Made by a program: the position numbers and the translations under genes. The notes under the pieces are model-generated. The model had not been told where the DNA came from. It searched no databases and worked only from the letters and a program-made list of their open reading frames with translations. A stretch of 64,000 bases of DNA from Halobacillus hunanensis. GTDB taxonomy: Bacteria > Bacillota > Bacilli > Bacillales > Halobacillaceae. Location: the NCBI RefSeq assembly GCF_900166655.1, contig NZ_FVZB01000007.1, positions 1,054,001 through 1,118,000 on the forward strand, written 5' to 3'. Each line of letters opens with the position of its first letter. Within the stretch, counting starts at the first letter, position 1. Positions 54,735 to 64,000 of the stretch are shown piece by piece.

Positions 54735-56000
54735 TTAACCAGCTTTATTTAATTCTTGTTTTTCACTTTTATAGATATCAATTCCTGCTTCTTTCAGCAT
54801 CCATTCGATATGAACCCCATAACCTGAGGTAGGATCGTTTACAAAAACGTGAGTAACAGCACCAATAATTTTACCGTTTTGAATGATTGGACTCCCGCTC
54901 ATACCTTGTACAATCCCGCCTGTTTTCTTCAACAGTTCAGGGTCAGTTATCTTTACAATCATTCCCTTTGTTACAGGCTTATCTTTGGGCATATTACTGA
55001 CGATCTCAACATCGAATTCCTGGAGCTTCTCGCCTTCAAGTACTGTTAAAATTTTTGCCGGACCTTCTTCGACCTGTTCTGAGTAACCAACAGGTAACCC
55101 ATCCGGATACTTCTGATTGATAATTCCTTCGTCTAATTTGCCGAAGATACCGAACGGACTATTTTCCGTGATCGTTCCTATTCGGTCTTCTTTCAGAGAA
55201 AATTCAGCTCTCTTTTCCCCAGGAACACCTTGGCTTCCTTTTTCAATTGAGGTTACATTGGATTCAACAATAGTCCCTTTGTTGATTTCAATTGGCTGCT
55301 TCGTGTCCATATCTGCAATGACATGGCCAAGAGCACCATATTTACCGGAGTCAGGATGATAAAAAGTCATCGTCCCTATCCCAGCTGCTGAATCACGAAC
55401 GTAGAGACCAATTTGGTATTGGTCATCTTTTTTATTTAACGATGGAGTAAGTGACGTTTGGAACGTTTCTTCGCCTCTTTTTACTGTTAGTTCTACTGGT
55501 TCACTTTGATCTCCAGACTTATCCACTATCTCGGAAAGCTCCTCCATACTGTTCAATTCTTCTCCATTTCCTTTGAGAAGAATATCTCCGACTTGAATGT
55601 CTGCTTTCTCTCCCGGTGAAGTCGACTCTTCTTTATTTTCATTAACAAGATGATGTCCGACTACAAGAACACCTTTCGTTTGGAGTTGAACTCCAACCGA
55701 ATGACCGCCAGGAACTAAACGAATATCCTTCATTTTTCTAACATCCGTTTTCTTTAAAGGAATTCCTGCAAATTCATGAAATACCTCACTAGTGTTTGGT
55801 TCGACACTGTCAGAAGAAAAAGCTGTTCTTGCTTCATCTGTTTGACTCCAAACTTGAGAAGATTCAATTGGTTTGGAAGTACTGATACGAAGTTCTGTAG
55901 GGATGGATAAATATTCTTGAAATGGGCTAAATAAAGGTAAAGCGAGCATCAACAACAGGAGAACGGAGCCACATATATATCGGAATTTAAAATGGAACAC
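54735..56000 (-). CDS. spoIVB: SpoIV B serine peptidase (S55 family)
   Basis: 421 residues from GTG 56000. One N-terminal membrane helix (about 8-28, CGSVLLLLMLALPLFS) acts as uncleaved signal. A PDZ domain follows around 105-200 (GVLVVGHHLVNE ... IQVGDILLKGNGEELNSMEELSEIV). The S55 peptidase domain has the likely histidine in GALGHVIADMD and nucleophile Ser370 in QGMSGSPIIQNG. Made in the forespore, it crosses to the intermembrane space and cuts SpoIVFA, triggering pro-sigma-K processing. A perfect forespore -10 (CATTATA, about 56046-56052) lies upstream without a good -35. It is conserved between recN and spo0A. Confidence 0.94.
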   Translation of the reverse strand: MFHFKFRYICGSVLLLLMLALPLFSPFQEYLSIPTELRISTSKPIESSQVWSQTDEARTAFSSDSVEPNTSEVFHEFAGIPLKKTDVRKMKDIRLVPGGHSVGVQLQTKGVLVVGHHLVNENKEESTSPGEKADIQVGDILLKGNGEELNSMEELSEIVDKSGDQSEPVELTVKRGEETFQTSLTPSLNKKDDQYQIGLYVRDSAAGIGTMTFYHPDSGKYGALGHVIADMDTKQPIEINKGTIVESNVTSIEKGSQGVPGEKRAEFSLKEDRIGTITENSPFGIFGKLDEGIINQKYPDGLPVGYSEQVEEGPAKILTVLEGEKLQEFDVEIVSNMPKDKPVTKGMIVKITDPELLKKTGGIVQGMSGSPIIQNGKIIGAVTHVFVNDPTSGYGVHIEWMLKEAGIDIYKSEKQELNKAG

Positions 56001-56216
56001 TGTTAAACACTCCCTCTCACTCCTGTGCCAATGAATTGGCTTACTTATAATGTGGTCCTCAACTGCTGTTTTTAAACGAGCATAATCACAGAAATTATAG
56101 GATGCTTTGCCTTAGAAAGAAACATTCTCCAATCTGAAAGTAACAGGATTGAATACGGAAGTAAAGATTGAAGCAAATCTGATTCATAAAGCATAGTCAA
56201 GAAAGTTGTATCCATA

Positions 56217-56248
56217 TAAAAAACGTATGGAAAGCCATACGTTTTTTC
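56217..56248 (-). terminator. Terminator after recN
   Basis: AAAAACGTATGG and CCATACGTTTTT form a 12-pair stem with a four-base loop and T-runs. It begins a few bases after the recN stop. The rest of 56001-56216 shows no gene. Confidence 0.88.
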
Positions 56249-56251
56249 ATT

Positions 56252-57979
56252 CTAAGCATTTTGTTTATATTTAGTGGCCAGGGTTAACAACTCTTTTGCA
56301 TGTTCGATCGTTGTATCTGTCAGCTCGGCACCCGAAATCATTCTGGAAATTTCATCAGCTTTATCGTTTTCGGATAACTCGGTAACTACAGTTGATGTCC
56401 GATCGTTTGTAACATCTTTTTCAATTCTAATATGCGTATCAGCCATAGCTGCAACCTGTGGCAAATGTGATATGCACAAGACTTGTGAGTCACTTGAAAT
56501 TCCTTGAATCTTCTCTGCAATAGCCTGGGCTACACGACCGCTGACACCTGTATCCACTTCGTCAAAAATGACACTTGTTATCCCTTGATGGCGTGAAAAG
56601 ATACGTTTCAAGGCAAGCATAATTCGAGACATTTCTCCGCCTGAGGCAACTTTGTGCAGGTTCTTCAGCGGCTCACCGGGATTCGTAGTAATTAAGAAAG
56701 TAACGGTATCAAATCCCCGGGAATGTAAGCGTACACGCTTCCCTTCAAATTCAGGGTCATCTGGTCGGCCCTCTTTTATTTCTACATTCGTCTGAAATGA
56801 GGCTTTTTCCAGATATAGATCTGTTAACTCTTCGTGAATCAGGTTGGCTAAATGTTTAGATGCTTTTGTTCGAATATCGTGTATATTCTTTGCCTCAAGA
56901 GCGGCATCTTTACCAAGTTCCGTAATCTGCTCTTCCAATTTACTGAGGTGGGAATCTTTATTTTTAATCTCGTCTATCTCTTCTTCAATTTTCGAAGCAT
57001 ACTCCAGCATATCCTCTACGGTTTGTCCGTATTTCTTTTTTAATCGATTTAGTTCGCTTAACCTTGATTCAATATCATTTAAACGTTCTGGATCAAATTC
57101 AAGTTCAGCCATCTGAGTACTTAACTGAAAAGTCAGTTCCTCCATAACATAATAACTGTTGGACATTTCTTCTGAGAGCTTCCGTATTTGATTGTCATAA
57201 TCTGATGTATTCTCTAAAGAGGTCATCGCCAAACTCAGCCAGTCTAAACCTTTTTGTTCACCATATAACGCGTTGTAGGCATCATGAATCCCCTGATATA
57301 CCTTTTCATAATTCATGAGCTTTTTTCGCTCTTCTTCAAGCTCTTCGTCTTCAAACGGTTGTAAATCTGCCTCATGAAGCTCTCGCAGTTGAAACTCAAG
57401 CAAATCCAATCGCTGCGCCACTTCCTGTTCATTTTCACTAAGTTCATTATACCTTTTTTTGACCGTTTGATAATTTGTATATAACTGATCATACTCCTCT
57501 AAAGAAGGGGTCAGCTCGTCTATAATAAACATGTCAAGAAGGTCGATATGATGCTCCGGGTCCATCAAGGATTGAGTTTCATGTTGACTGTGAATATCAA
57601 TTAAGGTTGAACCAAATTCTCTTAAAATTCCCAGTGTAACGAGCTTGCCATTTACCCGGCAAATACTTTTGCCTTGGCGAGTGATCACTCTTTGCAAGAC
57701 AACCATGCCGTCTTCACTAATTTCAACCCCGAATTGCCTGCCTTTTTGATATACTGGATGAGTTGCTTCAACTGTAAATAACCCCTCAATTTCTGCTTTA
57801 TCAGTACCATGACGGACAAACTCAACAGAACCACGACCTCCTGACAAGAGCTGTATGGCATCTATGATAATGGACTTACCTGCGCCGGTCTCTCCTGTAA
57901 GTACTGTAAGTCCTTCTTTAAATGTGATGGATACTTGATTAATGATAGCAAAGTCCTTTATCGATAATTCAGTTAACAT
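56252..57979 (-). CDS. recN: DNA repair protein RecN (SMC-like)
   Basis: 575 residues. Walker A GETGAGKS lies near 29-36. Coiled-coil arms extend over about 160-360 (long runs of Glu, Leu, Lys and Arg), interrupted by a head-proximal hinge-like turn. Signature SGGEMSRIMLALK and Walker B VIFDEVDTGVSG follow near 440-485. It gathers at double-strand breaks and tethers DNA ends. It lies 15 bases after argR, in the usual argR-recN order. Confidence 0.96.
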   Translation of the reverse strand: MLTELSIKDFAIINQVSITFKEGLTVLTGETGAGKSIIIDAIQLLSGGRGSVEFVRHGTDKAEIEGLFTVEATHPVYQKGRQFGVEISEDGMVVLQRVITRQGKSICRVNGKLVTLGILREFGSTLIDIHSQHETQSLMDPEHHIDLLDMFIIDELTPSLEEYDQLYTNYQTVKKRYNELSENEQEVAQRLDLLEFQLRELHEADLQPFEDEELEEERKKLMNYEKVYQGIHDAYNALYGEQKGLDWLSLAMTSLENTSDYDNQIRKLSEEMSNSYYVMEELTFQLSTQMAELEFDPERLNDIESRLSELNRLKKKYGQTVEDMLEYASKIEEEIDEIKNKDSHLSKLEEQITELGKDAALEAKNIHDIRTKASKHLANLIHEELTDLYLEKASFQTNVEIKEGRPDDPEFEGKRVRLHSRGFDTVTFLITTNPGEPLKNLHKVASGGEMSRIMLALKRIFSRHQGITSVIFDEVDTGVSGRVAQAIAEKIQGISSDSQVLCISHLPQVAAMADTHIRIEKDVTNDRTSTVVTELSENDKADEISRMISGAELTDTTIEHAKELLTLATKYKQNA

Positions 57980-57994
57980 GGCGAATCACCTCAG

Positions 57995-58444
57995 CTATAA
58001 CATATTTAACAATTGTTCACTGATGCTTTCGGTTTGTTCTTTACTCCTGCAAATTATCAAACAAGTGTCATCGCCACAGATGGTTCCCATAATTTCTTCC
58101 CAATCAAGGTTGTCAATAAGGGCCCCTACTGCATTAGCATTTCCCGGCAATGTCTTTAAAATTATAAAGTGACCCGCTTGATCAATACTAACGAAAGCAT
58201 CCATCATAAGACGTTTTAATTTTTCTAATGGGTTAAAACGCTGGTCTGCAGGTAAACTGTATTTATATCGGCCATCGAGCATAGGAACTTTTACAAGATG
58301 TAATTCTTTTATATCCCTTGAAATTGTTGCTTGTGTGACATCATAGTCCATTGCCTTCAACCGATTCACTAACTCATCCTGTGTCTCAATATCATCGTTC
58401 GTGATTAACTCGCGAATCTTAATATGCCGCTGTCCTTTATTCAT
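57995..58444 (-). CDS. argR: Arginine repressor ArgR/AhrC
   Basis: 149 residues. The N-terminal winged helix (1-70) shows [24 protein letters not shown] and [16 protein letters not shown]. The C-terminal hexamer and arginine-binding domain (80-149) has [33 protein letters not shown], with the Asp pair that binds arginine. With arginine it represses biosynthetic arg genes and activates rocABC/DEF. A terminator-like hairpin separates it from tlyA. Confidence 0.95.
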
Positions 58445-58458
58445 ATCGATCCTCCCAT

Positions 58459-58484
58459 AACAAAAGGGCTAAATAGTAGCCCTT
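58459..58484 (-). terminator. Hairpin between tlyA and argR
   Basis: On the minus strand AAGGGCTA and TAGCCCTT form an eight-pair stem with a five-base loop, followed by TTGTTAT. The T-run is broken, so termination may be partial and let transcripts reach argR. Confidence 0.6.
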
Positions 58485-58502
58485 GAATGTCATCTATATA
58501 AC

Positions 58503-59321
58503 CTATTTTCGATGCGCCTCGTGCGCTTCTGCCACCACACTATCCACTTCGACATCATCCGCTATATCTCCTGCTTCTTCGCCTGTCCAATATAAATGAA
58601 CGAGAAATTCGATATTTCCGTCGCCTCCGGTTATCGGTGAAAAAGTCAAGTTCTTTACCGAAAAACCCAACTGGCTTGCGAAGTCGAGAATTCTTCGGAT
58701 CACCAAATTGTGGATCGCAGCATCTCTAATAATCCCTTTTCTGCCGACCTGTTCCCGTCCTGCTTCAAACTGGGGTTTGATTAAGGCCACTACATCACTG
58801 TTTACATTCAGCAATTCGGTTAACACAGGCAGGATCAAACGCAGTGAAATAAACGAAACGTCAATGCTGGCAAATTGTGGCTTTCCTTCTGTCAAATCAT
58901 CTGGCGTCACATACCGAAAATTTGTTCGTTCCATAACAACTACTTGAGGATGATTTCTAAGCTTCCAGTCCAGCTGGTTGTAGCCAACATCGATTGCATA
59001 GCTAAGACGAGCACCATTTTGTAAGGCACAATCAGTAAATCCGCCTGTCGATGAGCCAATATCGATCATTGTCTTCCCCTTCAGGTCCAACGCGAACTTG
59101 TCTAGAGCTTTTTCAAGTTTCAACCCGCCCCTGCTTACATAAGGAATAGCGCTCCCTTTGACAGTAAGTTCGATCGTTTCGTCAACTTTTTGTCCAGGCT
59201 TATCAAGACGATGATTTCTTTCGAAAACAAGACCAGCCATTATGGTACGTTTAGCCTTTTCCCTCGTCTCAATCAATCCTCGTTCAACCATTAATAAATC
59301 CAATCGCACTTTTCTTCCCAT
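58503..59321 (-). CDS. tlyA: TlyA-family rRNA methyltransferase (YqxC)
   Basis: 272 residues. An S4 RNA-binding domain covers about 3-65 (VRLDLLMVERGLIETREKAKRTIMAGLV). The FtsJ-like methyltransferase domain has the SAM loop MIDIGSSTGGFTDCALQNGA near 90-110 and later LIKPQFEAGREQVG. It would 2'-O-methylate rRNA as in Mycobacterium TlyA; hemolysin naming in old annotations is not supported by the domain content. It follows dxs by three bases. Confidence 0.92.
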   Translation of the reverse strand: MGRKVRLDLLMVERGLIETREKAKRTIMAGLVFERNHRLDKPGQKVDETIELTVKGSAIPYVSRGGLKLEKALDKFALDLKGKTMIDIGSSTGGFTDCALQNGARLSYAIDVGYNQLDWKLRNHPQVVVMERTNFRYVTPDDLTEGKPQFASIDVSFISLRLILPVLTELLNVNSDVVALIKPQFEAGREQVGRKGIIRDAAIHNLVIRRILDFASQLGFSVKNLTFSPITGGDGNIEFLVHLYWTGEEAGDIADDVEVDSVVAEAHEAHRK

Positions 59322-59324
59322 AAT

Positions 59325-61214
59325 TTAGGCCCTCTGTTGCTTTTCAGGTATAATCTCTTTAATGTTCTTTATCACGTTGTCTTCCGTCAGTCCGATTTCG
59401 TCCCATAGTTCAGGGACGCTGCCGTGTTCAATAAATCGGTCAGGTACACCAAGTCGATTCACCCAGGAAAGATAGTTGTGCTCTTCTTTAAACTCCAGAA
59501 CACTAGAGCCAAACCCTCCCTGGAGCACCGCTTCTTCGACAGTTAATATAGGGAGCTTGTCCTTCATGATATCATGAAGCATCGCTTCATCCATCGGTTT
59601 AATGAATCGAGCGTTAACGACACGTACGGATAGTCCTTCTTTACTAAGCCGTTCGCTTGCAGCCATGGCCATAGGAATGGTGGTACCGAATGTTAAAATA
59701 ACAGCATCTGTACCGTCTTTTAGTAAATCCCAGCTGCCAATCGGTATCGTTTTCAGGTCATCACTCATCTTGACTCCTAATCCATTTCCTCGAGGATAGC
59801 GGATAGCAATCGGTCCATCATTATAGGTGACAGCTGTATGAACGAGATGCTGTCCTTCATCTTCGTCCTTCGGCATGGCAACCACCATGTTTGGAACAGA
59901 GCGGAGAAATGCCACATCAAACACTCCCTGATGAGTCTCCCCATCAGCTCCAACCAATCCTGCTCGGTCCACTCCGAATACGACATTTAGATTTTGTCTT
60001 GCCACATCGTGAATCACCTGGTCATATCCTCGTTGTAAGAAGGTTGAATAAATAGCGAGGAACGGTTTCATTCCTTGAGTTGCCAATCCAGCTGATAAGG
60101 TGGTAGCATGCTGCTCAGCGATCCCGACATCGAACAAACGATCCGGAAATTCTTCACCAAATTTTTCGAGCTTAGACCCCAATACCATTGCTGGTGTAAC
60201 CGCTACAACTCTTTTATCGATACGAGCCTCCTTCCTAAGCGTTTCGCTTATTACCTCACTCCACGCTGGAGGAGCATCAGCGGGTTTAATTTTTTCTCCA
60301 GATTCAATTTTATAAGGGCCGACACCGTGCCATTTGTCCTTATTATCTGTCTCGGCTGGATGATAACCCTTTCCCTTTTGGGTGATGACATGTACGATTA
60401 CAGGACCACTCGTCTTCTTAGCATAGTTTAAGTTCTCAAATAAATCATGATAATCATGACCATCTACAGGACCATAATAGGTAAAGCCTAATTCTTCAAA
60501 AAACATTCCAGGCAGCACAAAATACTTCATACTGTCTTTCAGTCTTTCAGCGGCCTGCGCTAATCTTCCCCCGACAGCAGGAATACGCTTAAGAATCCAT
60601 TCTAAATCGTCCTTTGCCCGGTTATATTTCCCAGCACTTCTCATGCGTCCTAATGCTCCATGTAAAGCACCAACATTTCTGGCAATTGACATTTCGTTAT
60701 CATTTAGGATAACGGTTACATTCTTTTTCTCATCACCGATATGATTAAGTGCTTCAAGAGCCATACCTCCAGTGAGAGCCCCGTCCCCGATAATAGGCAC
60801 AATAGAATGCGATTCATTCTTCAAATCGCGGGCAATCGCCATACCCATGGCTGCTGACAATGACGTTGAACTATGTCCAGTCTCCCAAATATCGTGCTCA
60901 CTTTCATTTCGTTTCGGAAAACCACACAACCCTTTATATTGTCTCAATGTATCAAATTGGCCGGCACGTCCTGTTAATATTTTATGAATATAAGACTGAT
61001 GTCCGACATCAAACAGCAAACGATCCTTTGGGCTTTCAAACACTTTGTGCAAAGCTAACGTAAGCTCTACGACACCGAGGTTTGCACCTAAATGCCCTCC
61101 TGTACCTGACAAATTTTCTATAAGAAACTTGCGCATATCTAATGAAAGTGCTTCTAATTGACCAATCGACATTTCCTTCATAAATGAAGGTTCTTTAATC
61201 TTGTACAGATCCAT
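59325..61214 (-). CDS. dxs: 1-deoxy-D-xylulose-5-phosphate synthase
   Basis: 629 residues. The thiamine diphosphate motif [18 protein letters not shown] ... LNDNEMSI lies near 145-178. Catalytic His and Glu regions ([30 protein letters not shown]) and the C-terminal transketolase domain are complete. It joins pyruvate and glyceraldehyde-3-phosphate in the first step of the MEP isoprenoid pathway, whose later product IspA handles. It lies 12 bases after oapA, so dxs probably shares the transcript that carries OLE RNA. Confidence 0.96.
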
Positions 61215-61226
61215 TAAAGGACCCCC

Positions 61227-61826
61227 TTAGCGTGATTTTCTAGCATGATTTGATGCGCTAGAAAGAATATTGATTTTTGTTTTATCTTCTACCCAGGCAA
61301 TGAGGCGGGCAGTTGTAAAAATGACTTTAGTGGAAGAATGGATGGCAAAGTATTTCCCAAGAGCTTTGCCCCCGACCGTTAAAGCCGCCACCACACTCGT
61401 TACGAACACTGAAAAAACAAGCTGAAAGGTAGAGCCGTCGTCGTGTCCCAGAACATTAACAATTTGAAGAACTACGACAGTCGAAGCTGTTCCACTCACT
61501 ATACCAGATATATCCCCGATTACATCGTTACAGAAACTTGCAAATCGATCAGCATTCCTAACGATGATAATCGCTTCCTTAGCTCCTCTAATTTTCTCAG
61601 AAGCCATAGAATGAAATGGGGTCTCCTGAGCCGCCGTCGCAGCTATTCCTAGCATATCAAAAATAACCCCTATAAATACAATAGCCAGTACAATTAAAAT
61701 CCCAGCTACCCATATAACACCACTTAAAGCAGATGTTGAAATAACTGAAAAAATAGCCGCTAACACAAATGTGATAACGGCAATACTCAAACTAAATTTC
61801 ACTGATTTTTTAAATTGATTATCCAT
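61227..61826 (-). CDS. oapA: OLE-associated membrane protein OapA
   Basis: 199 residues from ATG 61826 (GAGGTT just upstream; an in-frame ATG at 61838 lacks a site). Four hydrophobic segments: about 9-31, 35-60, 110-130 and 137-155. The stretch FIGVIFDMLGIAATAAQETPFHSMA ... VRNADRFASFCNDVIGDISGIVSG resembles the DUF21/CNNM membrane family. Basic residues are plentiful, fitting RNA contact. It lies directly downstream of a large structured RNA and upstream of dxs, the arrangement known for OLE RNA and OapA. Identification rests on that context plus sequence style. Confidence 0.85.
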   Translation of the reverse strand: MDNQFKKSVKFSLSIAVITFVLAAIFSVISTSALSGVIWVAGILIVLAIVFIGVIFDMLGIAATAAQETPFHSMASEKIRGAKEAIIIVRNADRFASFCNDVIGDISGIVSGTASTVVVLQIVNVLGHDDGSTFQLVFSVFVTSVVAALTVGGKALGKYFAIHSSTKVIFTTARLIAWVEDKTKINILSSASNHARKSR

Positions 61827-61879
61827 TTTCAACCTCATTATTTAAATACATTCGTATGTAGGAAAGGAATGGTCATGAA

Positions 61880-62500
61880 AAAGGTAAAAATTACGGCTTA
61901 GGTCTAGTAGGTTTTCCCAATCAGATACCGAGTGTCACCACTCTGGCGGTTCCCCTTTAAATCCGACTCAGCCCCGTCTCCGGAAACTGGACTAGATTGC
62001 CACTGAGTCCGTACTATAATTCCCTTTTCATGTCCGTCCTAGAACAGTCTAGGGGATTTCCCCGACAGCCTTTGACCGTTCCTTAGCCTCTTTTGCAGTT
62101 CCGATTTCATATAGCGCAAGCCTTCATTCTCCAGTGGCCATCCGAAGATGTGACTGCCCCATGACTATAATCCCCTCGACCCCACTCAAGGCAGGCTACG
62201 CTGCTCATACAGTAAATTAAACCATATAAAGCAGGTTCATACCCCATTTCATAAGAATCTCCGGCGGGAGATACTCTTACAAAGATGGGCCTCCGCGGAA
62301 GAAGGGTCAACGCCCACATGCCTTTGTGGATCGCCCTGCCACCTTAACTCCCAGCACCGACCCAAGGCTGGGCGCCTCAAGCCGGCACAAGGAACTTCAT
62401 CGATGTGCCCTTTGGCGGATTTTTAGGCCCGCCTTCAGGAACGGAGGACCGACTAGAATACTGCACCATCCCTTTTGTAATTTTAATAATACCATATTCC
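61880..62500 (-). ncRNA. ole: OLE RNA (ornate, large, extremophilic RNA)
   Basis: A 694-base gap between ispA and oapA, markedly GC-richer and more structured than other gaps, with no conserved reading frame. Read on the minus strand it is full of GC-rich hairpins, for example GGCGGGCC/GGATTTTTAGGCCCGCC-type pairing near 62420-62440 and TCTCCCGCCGGAGA near 62262-62275. The ends can pair: CTAGTCGG (62456-62449) with CCTACTAG (61911-61904), one mismatch. Size (about 0.6 kb), location inside the ispA-dxs isoprenoid operon and the adjacent OapA gene match OLE RNA of extremophilic Firmicutes. Ends are approximate. Known OLE RNA sits at the membrane with OapA and affects tolerance to cold, alcohols and Mg2+. 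Confidence 0.85.
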
Positions 62501-62532
62501 TTAAGGTTGCTCAATAAATATCCTTTAGACCT

Positions 62533-63414
62533 TTATCGATCCCTCGTGCTTAAGAAATCAACCAGTGCAGCTAAAAAAGTATCATTCAATCCAGTTTGTT
62601 CTAGAGATTGTAAGGCCACATCCATATACCCGTTCATCTCCCTGATCGCTCCTTCAATGCCCAACAATTGCGGATAGGTGCTTTTATCGTTTCCTTCGTC
62701 ACTGCCAACCGGTTTACCGATAGCATCGGCATCTCCTAAAACATCTAAAATATCATCCTGTATTTGAAATATAAGACCAAGGACGTTTGCCATGTTCTCG
62801 ATTTTCTGAAAGGTTTCAGAAGTAGTATGACTAAGAAAAGCACCCGCCACAATAGCAAAGGAAAGCAACTGTCCCGTTTTATTCATGTGAATAGATTTTA
62901 ATTCATCTATCGAGACCTGTTTCCCTTCACTTCGCATATCCTGCATTTGTCCATCCACCATTCCAGCCCCGCCACTTGACCTGGAAAGCTCGCGGATCAG
63001 AAACACTTTTTCATCACTAGTCAAATTGGAGTCTTCGGAAATCACTTGAAAGCTTAGTGTGAGGAGAGCATCCCCCGCAAGAATTGCCGTAGCTTCATCA
63101 TATGCCTTATGAATAGTTGGCTGACCTCTTCTCATGTCATCATTATCCATTGCAGGAAGATCATCATGAATTAAAGAGTATGTATGGACCATCTCCAAGG
63201 CACATGCTGCTGTGTATCCGCGAGTGTAATCAACCCCAAACGCCTCCATTGTTGAAAGAAGTAGTATTGGTCGAACACGCTTTCCTCCAGCCTCAATGGA
63301 ATGAACAATAGCATCTCGTACTCGCCCAGGGTTAATGTGCTTGTTGACGTATCCCAACAATTTTTCATTTATAGTTTGTTGATAATCCCTCAGATGTTCT
63401 TGAAATGCCTCCAC
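62533..63414 (-). CDS. ispA: Farnesyl diphosphate synthase (YqiD)
   Basis: 293 residues from GTG 63414, which shares one base with the xseB TAG stop. The first Asp-rich motif is HDDLPAMDNDDMRRG (about 82-96) and the second FQIQDDILDVLGD (about 222-234). GGKRVRPILL near 44-53 is the usual basic site. Small residues before the first motif fit a C15 product. It condenses IPP and DMAPP made through the pathway begun by Dxs. OLE RNA follows in the same direction. Confidence 0.95.
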   Translation of the reverse strand: MEAFQEHLRDYQQTINEKLLGYVNKHINPGRVRDAIVHSIEAGGKRVRPILLLSTMEAFGVDYTRGYTAACALEMVHTYSLIHDDLPAMDNDDMRRGQPTIHKAYDEATAILAGDALLTLSFQVISEDSNLTSDEKVFLIRELSRSSGGAGMVDGQMQDMRSEGKQVSIDELKSIHMNKTGQLLSFAIVAGAFLSHTTSETFQKIENMANVLGLIFQIQDDILDVLGDADAIGKPVGSDEGNDKSTYPQLLGIEGAIREMNGYMDVALQSLEQTGLNDTFLAALVDFLSTRDR

Positions 63415-63650
63415 TATTCCTCCTCCTGAACTTCGTAAGGTTCAAATTCTCCGTGTTCATTTAAAATTTGCTGCATTTGATCTTCCACAAGATTAAGCTT
63501 TCCATTACAAAGCTTTGAAAGCTTCATGCCTTCCTGATAATACTGGATCGCTTCCTCCAGAGGAACATCACCTTCCTCGAGCTTTTCAACAAGTTTTTCC
63601 AATTGTTCCATGGCCTGCTCAAAAGTGAGTTCTTTTTCTTGATTTGTCAT
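63414..63650 (-). CDS. xseB: Exodeoxyribonuclease VII small subunit
   Basis: 78 residues, highly acidic and helical, with the family core [35 protein letters not shown]. It forms coiled-coil partners for XseA in the ATP-independent exonuclease that trims single-stranded DNA. It overlaps xseA by four bases (ATGA) and ispA by one, so these genes are coupled in one operon. Confidence 0.95.
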
Positions 63651-64000
63651 GATTGCTCCTCCTCAATATCATTTACAATACAATGCAGGCTGCCGTTGTG
63701 AAGCTTTACCGTCAATGAATGGCCGGGCTCTGTTTGATGAACACTTTTTAGTACCTTTCCTTTTTCTGTATAAGGAATGGCATAACCTCTTTTCATTATG
63801 TCTAGAGGATTTAATAGTCCCAATTTATCTATGACAGCATGAAATTGATCTTTTTTCGCACGGACCTGCCTGTTAATGCTTATCGTTAATTGCTTTGTTT
63901 GTTTATCCAAGAGTTTTCGATTCATTTGAAATTCCTCTTGTGGATGCTGTTGAATTAAGCGCTTCTCCAAGTATGATAAACGTTCTTTTTTCTGCTTATA
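63647..64000 (-). CDS. xseA: Exodeoxyribonuclease VII large subunit, C-terminal fragment (window edge)
   Basis: The frame is open from the window edge through about 117 codons to the stop at 63647. The visible part is the helical C-terminal region ([40 protein letters not shown]) and the final beta segment [22 protein letters not shown] ... [14 protein letters not shown], which is typical of XseA. The catalytic part lies outside the window. A start placed at 63970 would be artificial; translation clearly continues upstream. Confidence 0.92.

Follow-up and report, generated by a model that had tools for sequence, protein, structure and literature searches.

In this work we identified a UACAUA hexamer at the 3' border of an OLE RNA, which is conserved among Bacillaceae and matches the site cut by the B. 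subtilis toxin EndoA (MazF). The conserved hexamer at this border is a new observation, while the class of locus is known: the window (the whole 64-kb stretch of DNA analysed here) contains a standard OLE–oapA locus, which is almost certainly a functional OLE RNA gene, an assignment that we grade apart from the EndoA step discussed below. As for that step, the sequence suggests, with a confidence a little short of even, that OLE has a built-in EndoA cut site after its closing helix and that the toxin, when freed by stress, would cut OLE from the oapA mRNA.

Identity and setting of the OLE RNA gene

OLE is a large bacterial RNA bound to the membrane, which contributes to survival under stress. 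OLE (Rfam RF01071) is the sole Rfam family matched in the 64-kb window when the whole of it is scanned at gathering thresholds. The match lies on the minus strand (61853..62485), is full-length (model 1–616, all 616 positions) and scores 503.4 bits (E 1e-144) against a gathering score of 50, which answers the covariance-model search proposed in the first-pass annotation. That annotation had assigned OLE to 61839–62532, the 694-base gap between ispA and oapA. The gap does run from the end of the ispA ORF (62533) to the first in-frame ATG of oapA (61838), and the locus is correctly placed, but the limits of the RNA are not, as the OLE model spans 62485–61853. Other properties read from the gap were found again: it is GC-richer than other windows of the 55000–64000 region (0.50–0.51 versus 0.35–0.48), and its minus strand folds strongly, with a minimum free energy (MFE) of -233.9 kcal/mol (z -5.35), whereas a set of 20 dinucleotide-shuffled sequences gives -206.5 +/- 5.1. 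It was also said to hold no credible gene, and a coding gene was rejected here, since of the overlapping ORFs two were compared with Pfam and NCBIfam (62319–62107, minus; 62405–62677, plus) and neither matches any family of these collections at E 0.1. OLE is present as a single copy in the host genome (3.98 Mb).

The genes around the RNA are in the order ispA, OLE, oapA and dxs, all on the minus strand, which together with the full-length match bears out the arrangement known for OLE RNA. The isoprenoid operon setting is supported by family matches, with ispA (farnesyl diphosphate synthase, 62533..63414; NF045485, 375.9 bits) upstream and dxs (59325..61214; TIGR00204, 918.6 bits) after oapA; argR/ahrC (57995..58444, minus; NF003281, 272 bits) belongs to the same cluster. 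Downstream of oapA we find dxs, tlyA, argR, recN and spoIVB, a neighbourhood of the kind that PMC12265935 describes for ole, with argR and genes for isoprenoids, DNA repair and sporulation. The same paper names ArgR as an OLE partner, from its authors' unpublished data. The window OLE shares with that of H. halodurans C-125 (RF01071) membership of the full-length class and the position of ole adjoining oapA, and 2,822 members of the class were counted in one survey (PMC11332333).

The oapA gene adjoins OLE and encodes 199 amino acids when read from its second ATG (61227..61826, minus). The first in-frame ATG, at 61838, overlaps a likely ribosome-binding site, and GAGG at 61836–61833 precedes the second ATG at 61826, which looks the better and, judging from these letters, is the likelier start. 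The product had been described as a DUF21-like membrane protein. A weak DUF21/CNNM likeness is detected (PF01595, 22.7 bits), but it stays below the 28.4 cut-off, and OapA has no other Pfam match and no NCBIfam match at E 0.1; weak CNNM similarity is also the published state for OapA (PMC11332333). Residues D101 and D105, kept in 97% or more of the 81 sequences, match D100 and D104, the aspartates mutated in PM1 (PMC9723947), so that the window protein has in common with known OapA the adjoining OLE, the weak CNNM similarity and the conserved aspartate pair. Among the matches listed (best 80 of 547 relatives), the closest are from Halobacillus and Thalassobacillus, with up to 77% identity, reached by a Halobacillus homologue. 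Halobacillus and Thalassobacillus are halophiles, in keeping with the extremophilic host that the locus had been taken to hint at.

Two other readings of the gap were weighed. It lies directly upstream of oapA and no intrinsic terminator for OLE was found in 61200–63700, as would be expected of a long structured oapA leader (riboswitch-like or attenuator) rather than a free RNA. We regard such a leader as very improbable, given that the gap matches OLE over its full length and that the H. halodurans OLE is a separate RNA of ~630 nt (PMC9723947). Even less credible is a degenerate copy: 503.4 bits is among the lower scores of the host's family (range 490.6–530.6, 43 genomes), but nothing is broken in its conserved blocks, in P1 and P3, in the A-rich loop or in the promoter, and oapA is intact too. 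A functional OLE RNA gene is thus the best explanation of the locus.

Distribution of OLE and of its partners

OLE was detected in 43 of the 44 genomes of the host's family. The only genome without a match, G020, is made of 1000 contigs with 6% contamination, so its missing OLE is possibly an assembly gap. Taking the best 80 of 547 OapA relatives, OLE lies upstream of oapA in all 80, with 71.5–88.0% identity; Rfam confirmed 19 of the 19 tried, and the other 61 were recognised by blastn to the window OLE. These 80 loci, fetched by OapA similarity, form with the window the 81-sequence alignment used throughout.

The host also encodes three further proteins of interest. OapB is matched over 95 residues by the solved structure of 'OLE-associated protein B' (7k9b, E 2.5e-31) and its gene is located between map and infA, OapC matches YbxF (E 3.9e-22 and 5e-22) and its gene is located between rpoC and rpsL (gene names from reading the ORFs), and bS21 is present in the genome. 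A broken OapC was considered and rejected, as the single TAA flagged by the family search is the gene's own stop. The partners named as proven in papers, which are common but not universal in the OLE class, are therefore encoded by the host, and OapB, OapC and bS21 presumably bind OLE there.

Folding, dimer-bridge loops and promoter

The end-to-end pairing noticed at first reading corresponds to helix P1, which is present in the MFE structure. Its 5' strand (62465..62473, minus) pairs with its 3' strand (61873–61865; 61865..61873, minus) in both the MFE structure and the 81-sequence alignment, where 97.9% of cells are paired and five of the nine pairs show changes on both sides. The 5' strand of P3/P3.1 (62437..62451, minus) was assigned by position from PMC12265935, which draws on two cryo-EM studies to argue that this helix crosses the membrane, and the 3' strand (62066..62083, minus) was taken from the 81-sequence alignment; 11 of its 13 pairs are changed on both sides. 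P1 and P3/P3.1 are the long-range helices left unpaired in the Rfam match line. Jointly, 98.4% of their cells pair and 16 of their 22 pairs are changed on both sides over the 81 sequences, counts that are biased towards the P1/P3 structure, since some of its pairs were derived from this very alignment. When the two helices are slid, pairing drops to 28.6–59.9%, and the observed covariation was reached by none of 500 shuffles on four of five measures and by one of 500 on the fifth. RNAalifold run on the 81-locus alignment gives 186 pairs; for 98 of them, one or more sequences differ at both partner positions.

Two loops described as dimer bridges are both recognisable by sequence in the window OLE, the A-rich L4 and the palindromic L9. 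The hairpin with the A-rich loop (62414..62433, minus) would be P4 and, by its description in PMC12286853, dimer bridge B1, a name assigned in this analysis. The A-rich loop letters CTAAAAAT (62426–62419) are invariant in 81/81 loci, and the letters CUAAAAAU of this same loop likewise show no variation across all 81 aligned loci. The palindrome GGCC in the P9 loop (62136..62139, minus) would be the kissing-loop bridge B3, again by description and with its role taken from PMC12286853.

Just upstream of the RNA lies a putative extended -10 element, TG-n-TATTAT (62486..62491, minus). TGnTA, followed by a T after a further three or four bases, is found in 81/81 aligned loci, and T52, G53, T55, A56 and T61 are invariant. 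In the region 62514–62486 (minus; columns 1–100 of alignment A1) the extended -10 is kept in all 81 loci though the surrounding spacer has diverged. A -35-like hexamer, TTGAGC (62509..62514, minus), precedes it with a spacer of 17, giving 9/12 matches and a TG before the -10, and TTGA occurs 16–17 nt before TGnTA in 56 of the 81 loci. Promoter-like sites are no commoner in 61200–63700 than in shuffles (5 versus 5.2), and the case for this promoter therefore rests on conservation. An own promoter, next to the operon setting, has already been published for the H. halodurans C-125 OLE (PMC9723947), and the window locus fits that picture.

A conserved hexamer at the 3' border in Bacillaceae

Four bases after P1, the minus strand reads UACAUA (61855..61860), for which the predicted EndoA cut falls between 61860 and 61859. 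In the 81 Bacillaceae loci, UACAUA is found in the gap between P1 and oapA in 77, compared with a mean of 6.8 and a maximum of 16 in 300 dinucleotide shuffles, and it stands there among letters that have otherwise diverged. In 74 loci UACAU begins after 1–7 bases counted from P1, in four it lies at a greater distance, and three (L042, L053 and L060) do not have it; between it and the start of oapA (starts picked by a simple rule) there are anywhere from 14 to 104 nt. The motif thus stays near P1 at varying distances from oapA, and belongs to the end of the RNA and not to the start of the gene. In random windows of equal length taken elsewhere in the loci, TACAT is present in 645 of 13,027, and UACAU is followed by A at 78 of the 79 sites in the Bacillaceae gaps. 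The same hexamer is present near the 3' end of the H. halodurans C-125 OLE, at nt 619–624, in the reverse complement of the OLE1-637 reverse primer KH014 (PMC12054373, Table 1).

Within the body of the RNA, the hexamer occurs once in the 81 Bacillaceae sequences, fewer times than in any of 60 dinucleotide shuffles (6.4, minimum 2). A depletion of the OLE body was not retained, as it is weak in the phylum set (6 versus 11.1, minimum 3, dinucleotide shuffles, with one misplaced locus, L261, included in the phylum body counts); a mononucleotide figure of 20.3 overstates the effect. On the minus strand of the window UACAUA is no rarity in itself, occurring 12 times for 13.3 expected. One of these copies lies in ispA, in the same transcript direction (63184–63179, minus), and EndoA acting on the operon could cut there too.

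UACAUA is unpaired in the MFE structure of the full-length form, which stops at 61853. In a 251-nt fragment devoid of the 5' strand of P1, the MFE structure pairs four of the six bases in a weak helix and the centroid leaves them open. We rejected the possibility that the motif is a -10 box for oapA, since no conserved -35 is seen at a fixed distance when the alignment is read by eye. In one locus (L041, Salirhabdus euzebyi) the gap has no hexamer next to P1 and contains instead the inverted repeat TTGACC..GGCCAA with a run of T after it (by eye); this looks like an intrinsic terminator, and OLE may end differently there.

The hexamer across the phylum

OLE was detected in 284 of 398 sampled genomes of the phylum, and 3' ends were read in 227 loci (228 were fetched besides the window's own, L103 was dropped as it meets a contig end, and 55 OLE-positive genomes stayed outside the set). 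For the 168 loci fetched by region, orientations were checked against the listed strands and none differed. UACAU starts between -16 and +2 of the Rfam OLE end in 57 of the 227 loci, compared with 4–7 in six downstream windows of equal size and 0–1 in three windows inside the RNA. UACAUA is the commonest hexamer there, with a count of 52 compared with a mean of 2.8 in the controls, and A follows UACAU in 52 of the 57 cases versus 16 of 38 in the downstream controls. The motif-positive loci span 27 family codes (read by eye). In the other 170 loci UACAU is not at the border, and in family f35 none of the loci read has it, with or without MazF. On the OLE tree the motif requires 30 parsimony changes, versus 50.5 with shuffled labels; it is therefore inherited, but was also gained or lost many times.

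These observations leave very little room for the idea that UACAUA is inherited baggage or a chance product of AT-rich DNA, with no function. AT-rich gaps and kinship among the Bacillaceae loci speak for it, but the shuffles account for few of the 77 motif-bearing gaps, the other gap letters have diverged, and elsewhere in the phylum the motif is again found at this position, with the tree distribution just described. A functional signal at the 3' end of OLE is the reading that we follow below.

EndoA as a candidate enzyme

The window hexamer is identical to U/ACAUA, the sequence cut by B. subtilis EndoA (MazF), which requires A as the sixth base (PMC11780869); according to a review, the cut is made ahead of the first U (PMC6562991). 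The same hexamer is preferred by the Symbiobacterium MazF (PMC10893535), whereas that of Desulforudis cuts UACAAA, so that not all Bacillota MazF proteins cut UACAUA (PMC8634880). The EndoA of the host aligns over its full length with the B. subtilis protein (4mdx, E 2.1e-63), and EndoA is 82–96% identical in all 50 relatives' genomes checked, out of 80. These 50 include all seven genomes whose loci, among the 81, have no UACAU within 7 nt of P1. The host has a second protein of the PemK/MazF family (L096, G000:C1:758532-758840, 86.4 bits). With respect to the B. subtilis EndoA/NdoA site, the window thus has an identical hexamer, just outside a closing helix, in a host with a full-length EndoA. 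B. subtilis EndoA is known from mRNA cleavage, whereas the candidate site described here is at the border of a structural non-coding RNA. No conserved EndoA site at such a border was found in the literature searched, nor any paper linking OLE with EndoA; the one paper retrieved for OLE with MazF is a phage paper in which the words are unrelated. An earlier mapping of the exact 3' end is possible.

At the level of the phylum, the motif is found in 1 of 23 MazF-negative genomes and in 56 of the 204 others (Fisher P 0.011). The MazF-negative set was drawn by eye from two tables (24 genomes, 23 after the genome of L103 was left out) and is more GC-rich; stratification by AT content gives P 0.027. 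When the association is modelled on the OLE tree (two-state model), P rises to 0.13 (0.07 when conditioned on the total), and we therefore make no claim that MazF presence predicts the motif.

OLE is presumably processed, and its 3' end is described as processed (PMC9723947; PMC11332333). RNase P can cut it (PMC11332333), and the RNA is reported to be abundant in unstressed H. halodurans cells (PMC9723947), which implies that EndoA could act only under stress, be more active in H. halodurans or be irrelevant. Given the match of site and toxin, EndoA is in our opinion the likeliest enzyme to act at the OLE 3' end under stress, a proposal that we make tentatively and at not quite even confidence. 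There is a substantial chance, though one clearly below one half, that UACAUA is not an EndoA site and serves another purpose at the 3' end, such as binding a protein, directing another nuclease, or acting as a pause or anti-terminator for oapA. The tie of the motif to P1 and not to the gene start agrees with this alternative, as do the non-significance of the motif's scarcity in MazF-negative genomes once phylogeny is modelled and the report that wild-type B. subtilis shows no U/ACAUA cleavage, which was seen only in exonuclease-deficient strains (PMC11780869). The exact match over six bases, including the A after UACAU that prevails in both the Bacillaceae and the phylum sets, and the rank of UACAUA as the commonest hexamer at the site argue against it. 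We know of no other Bacillota factor that uses a UACAUA hexamer.

The following sequence of events can be proposed. RNA polymerase would start at the extended -10 just after ispA, and read-through of the operon, as reported in H. halodurans, would also transcribe OLE. The RNA, of ~620 nt, would have its ends closed by P1 and form a dimer through its conserved loops. With OapA, OapB, OapC and bS21, it would then form a membrane-bound stress RNP, as shown in other species and as the complete parts list suggests here. The 3' end would be cut out of the OLE–oapA transcript, for which UACAUA is the likeliest signal; if EndoA is the enzyme, it would cut U/ACAUA under stress and the folded OLE body would survive. 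A cut between 61860 and 61859 would leave a P1-closed RNA of ~620 nt, if its start is that deduced from the promoter, close to the ~630 nt of the H. halodurans RNA (PMC9723947), and would leave an oapA mRNA with its ribosome-binding site.

Implications for OLE biology

The host encodes two MpfA-type proteins with CNNM, CBS and CorC_HlyC domains (L087, 817–2151, C6:515983; L088, 1480–2826, C2:680921), and 44/44 genomes of the family have one or more CNNM proteins that exceed the Pfam cut-off, the full domain set having been checked for the host's two. An anticorrelation between OLE and MpfA has been reported, in which a typical OLE host has one MpfA at most, and H. halodurans is described as having no mpfA (PMC11332333), in contrast with the two CNNM-CBS-CorC proteins of the window host. 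With both OLE and CNNM proteins, the host's family is a natural setting for testing whether OLE and MpfA are redundant, as has been proposed.

The locus itself is one more host for a class with thousands of members, and its useful part is the 3' border. As the site is found in 77 of 81 gaps and in the genetically tractable model H. halodurans, the separation of OLE from oapA becomes a one-gene, one-site test. If EndoA does act there, OLE maturation and the balance between OLE and OapA would be wired to a toxin–antitoxin system, and such wiring would help to explain how one RNP answers many stresses.
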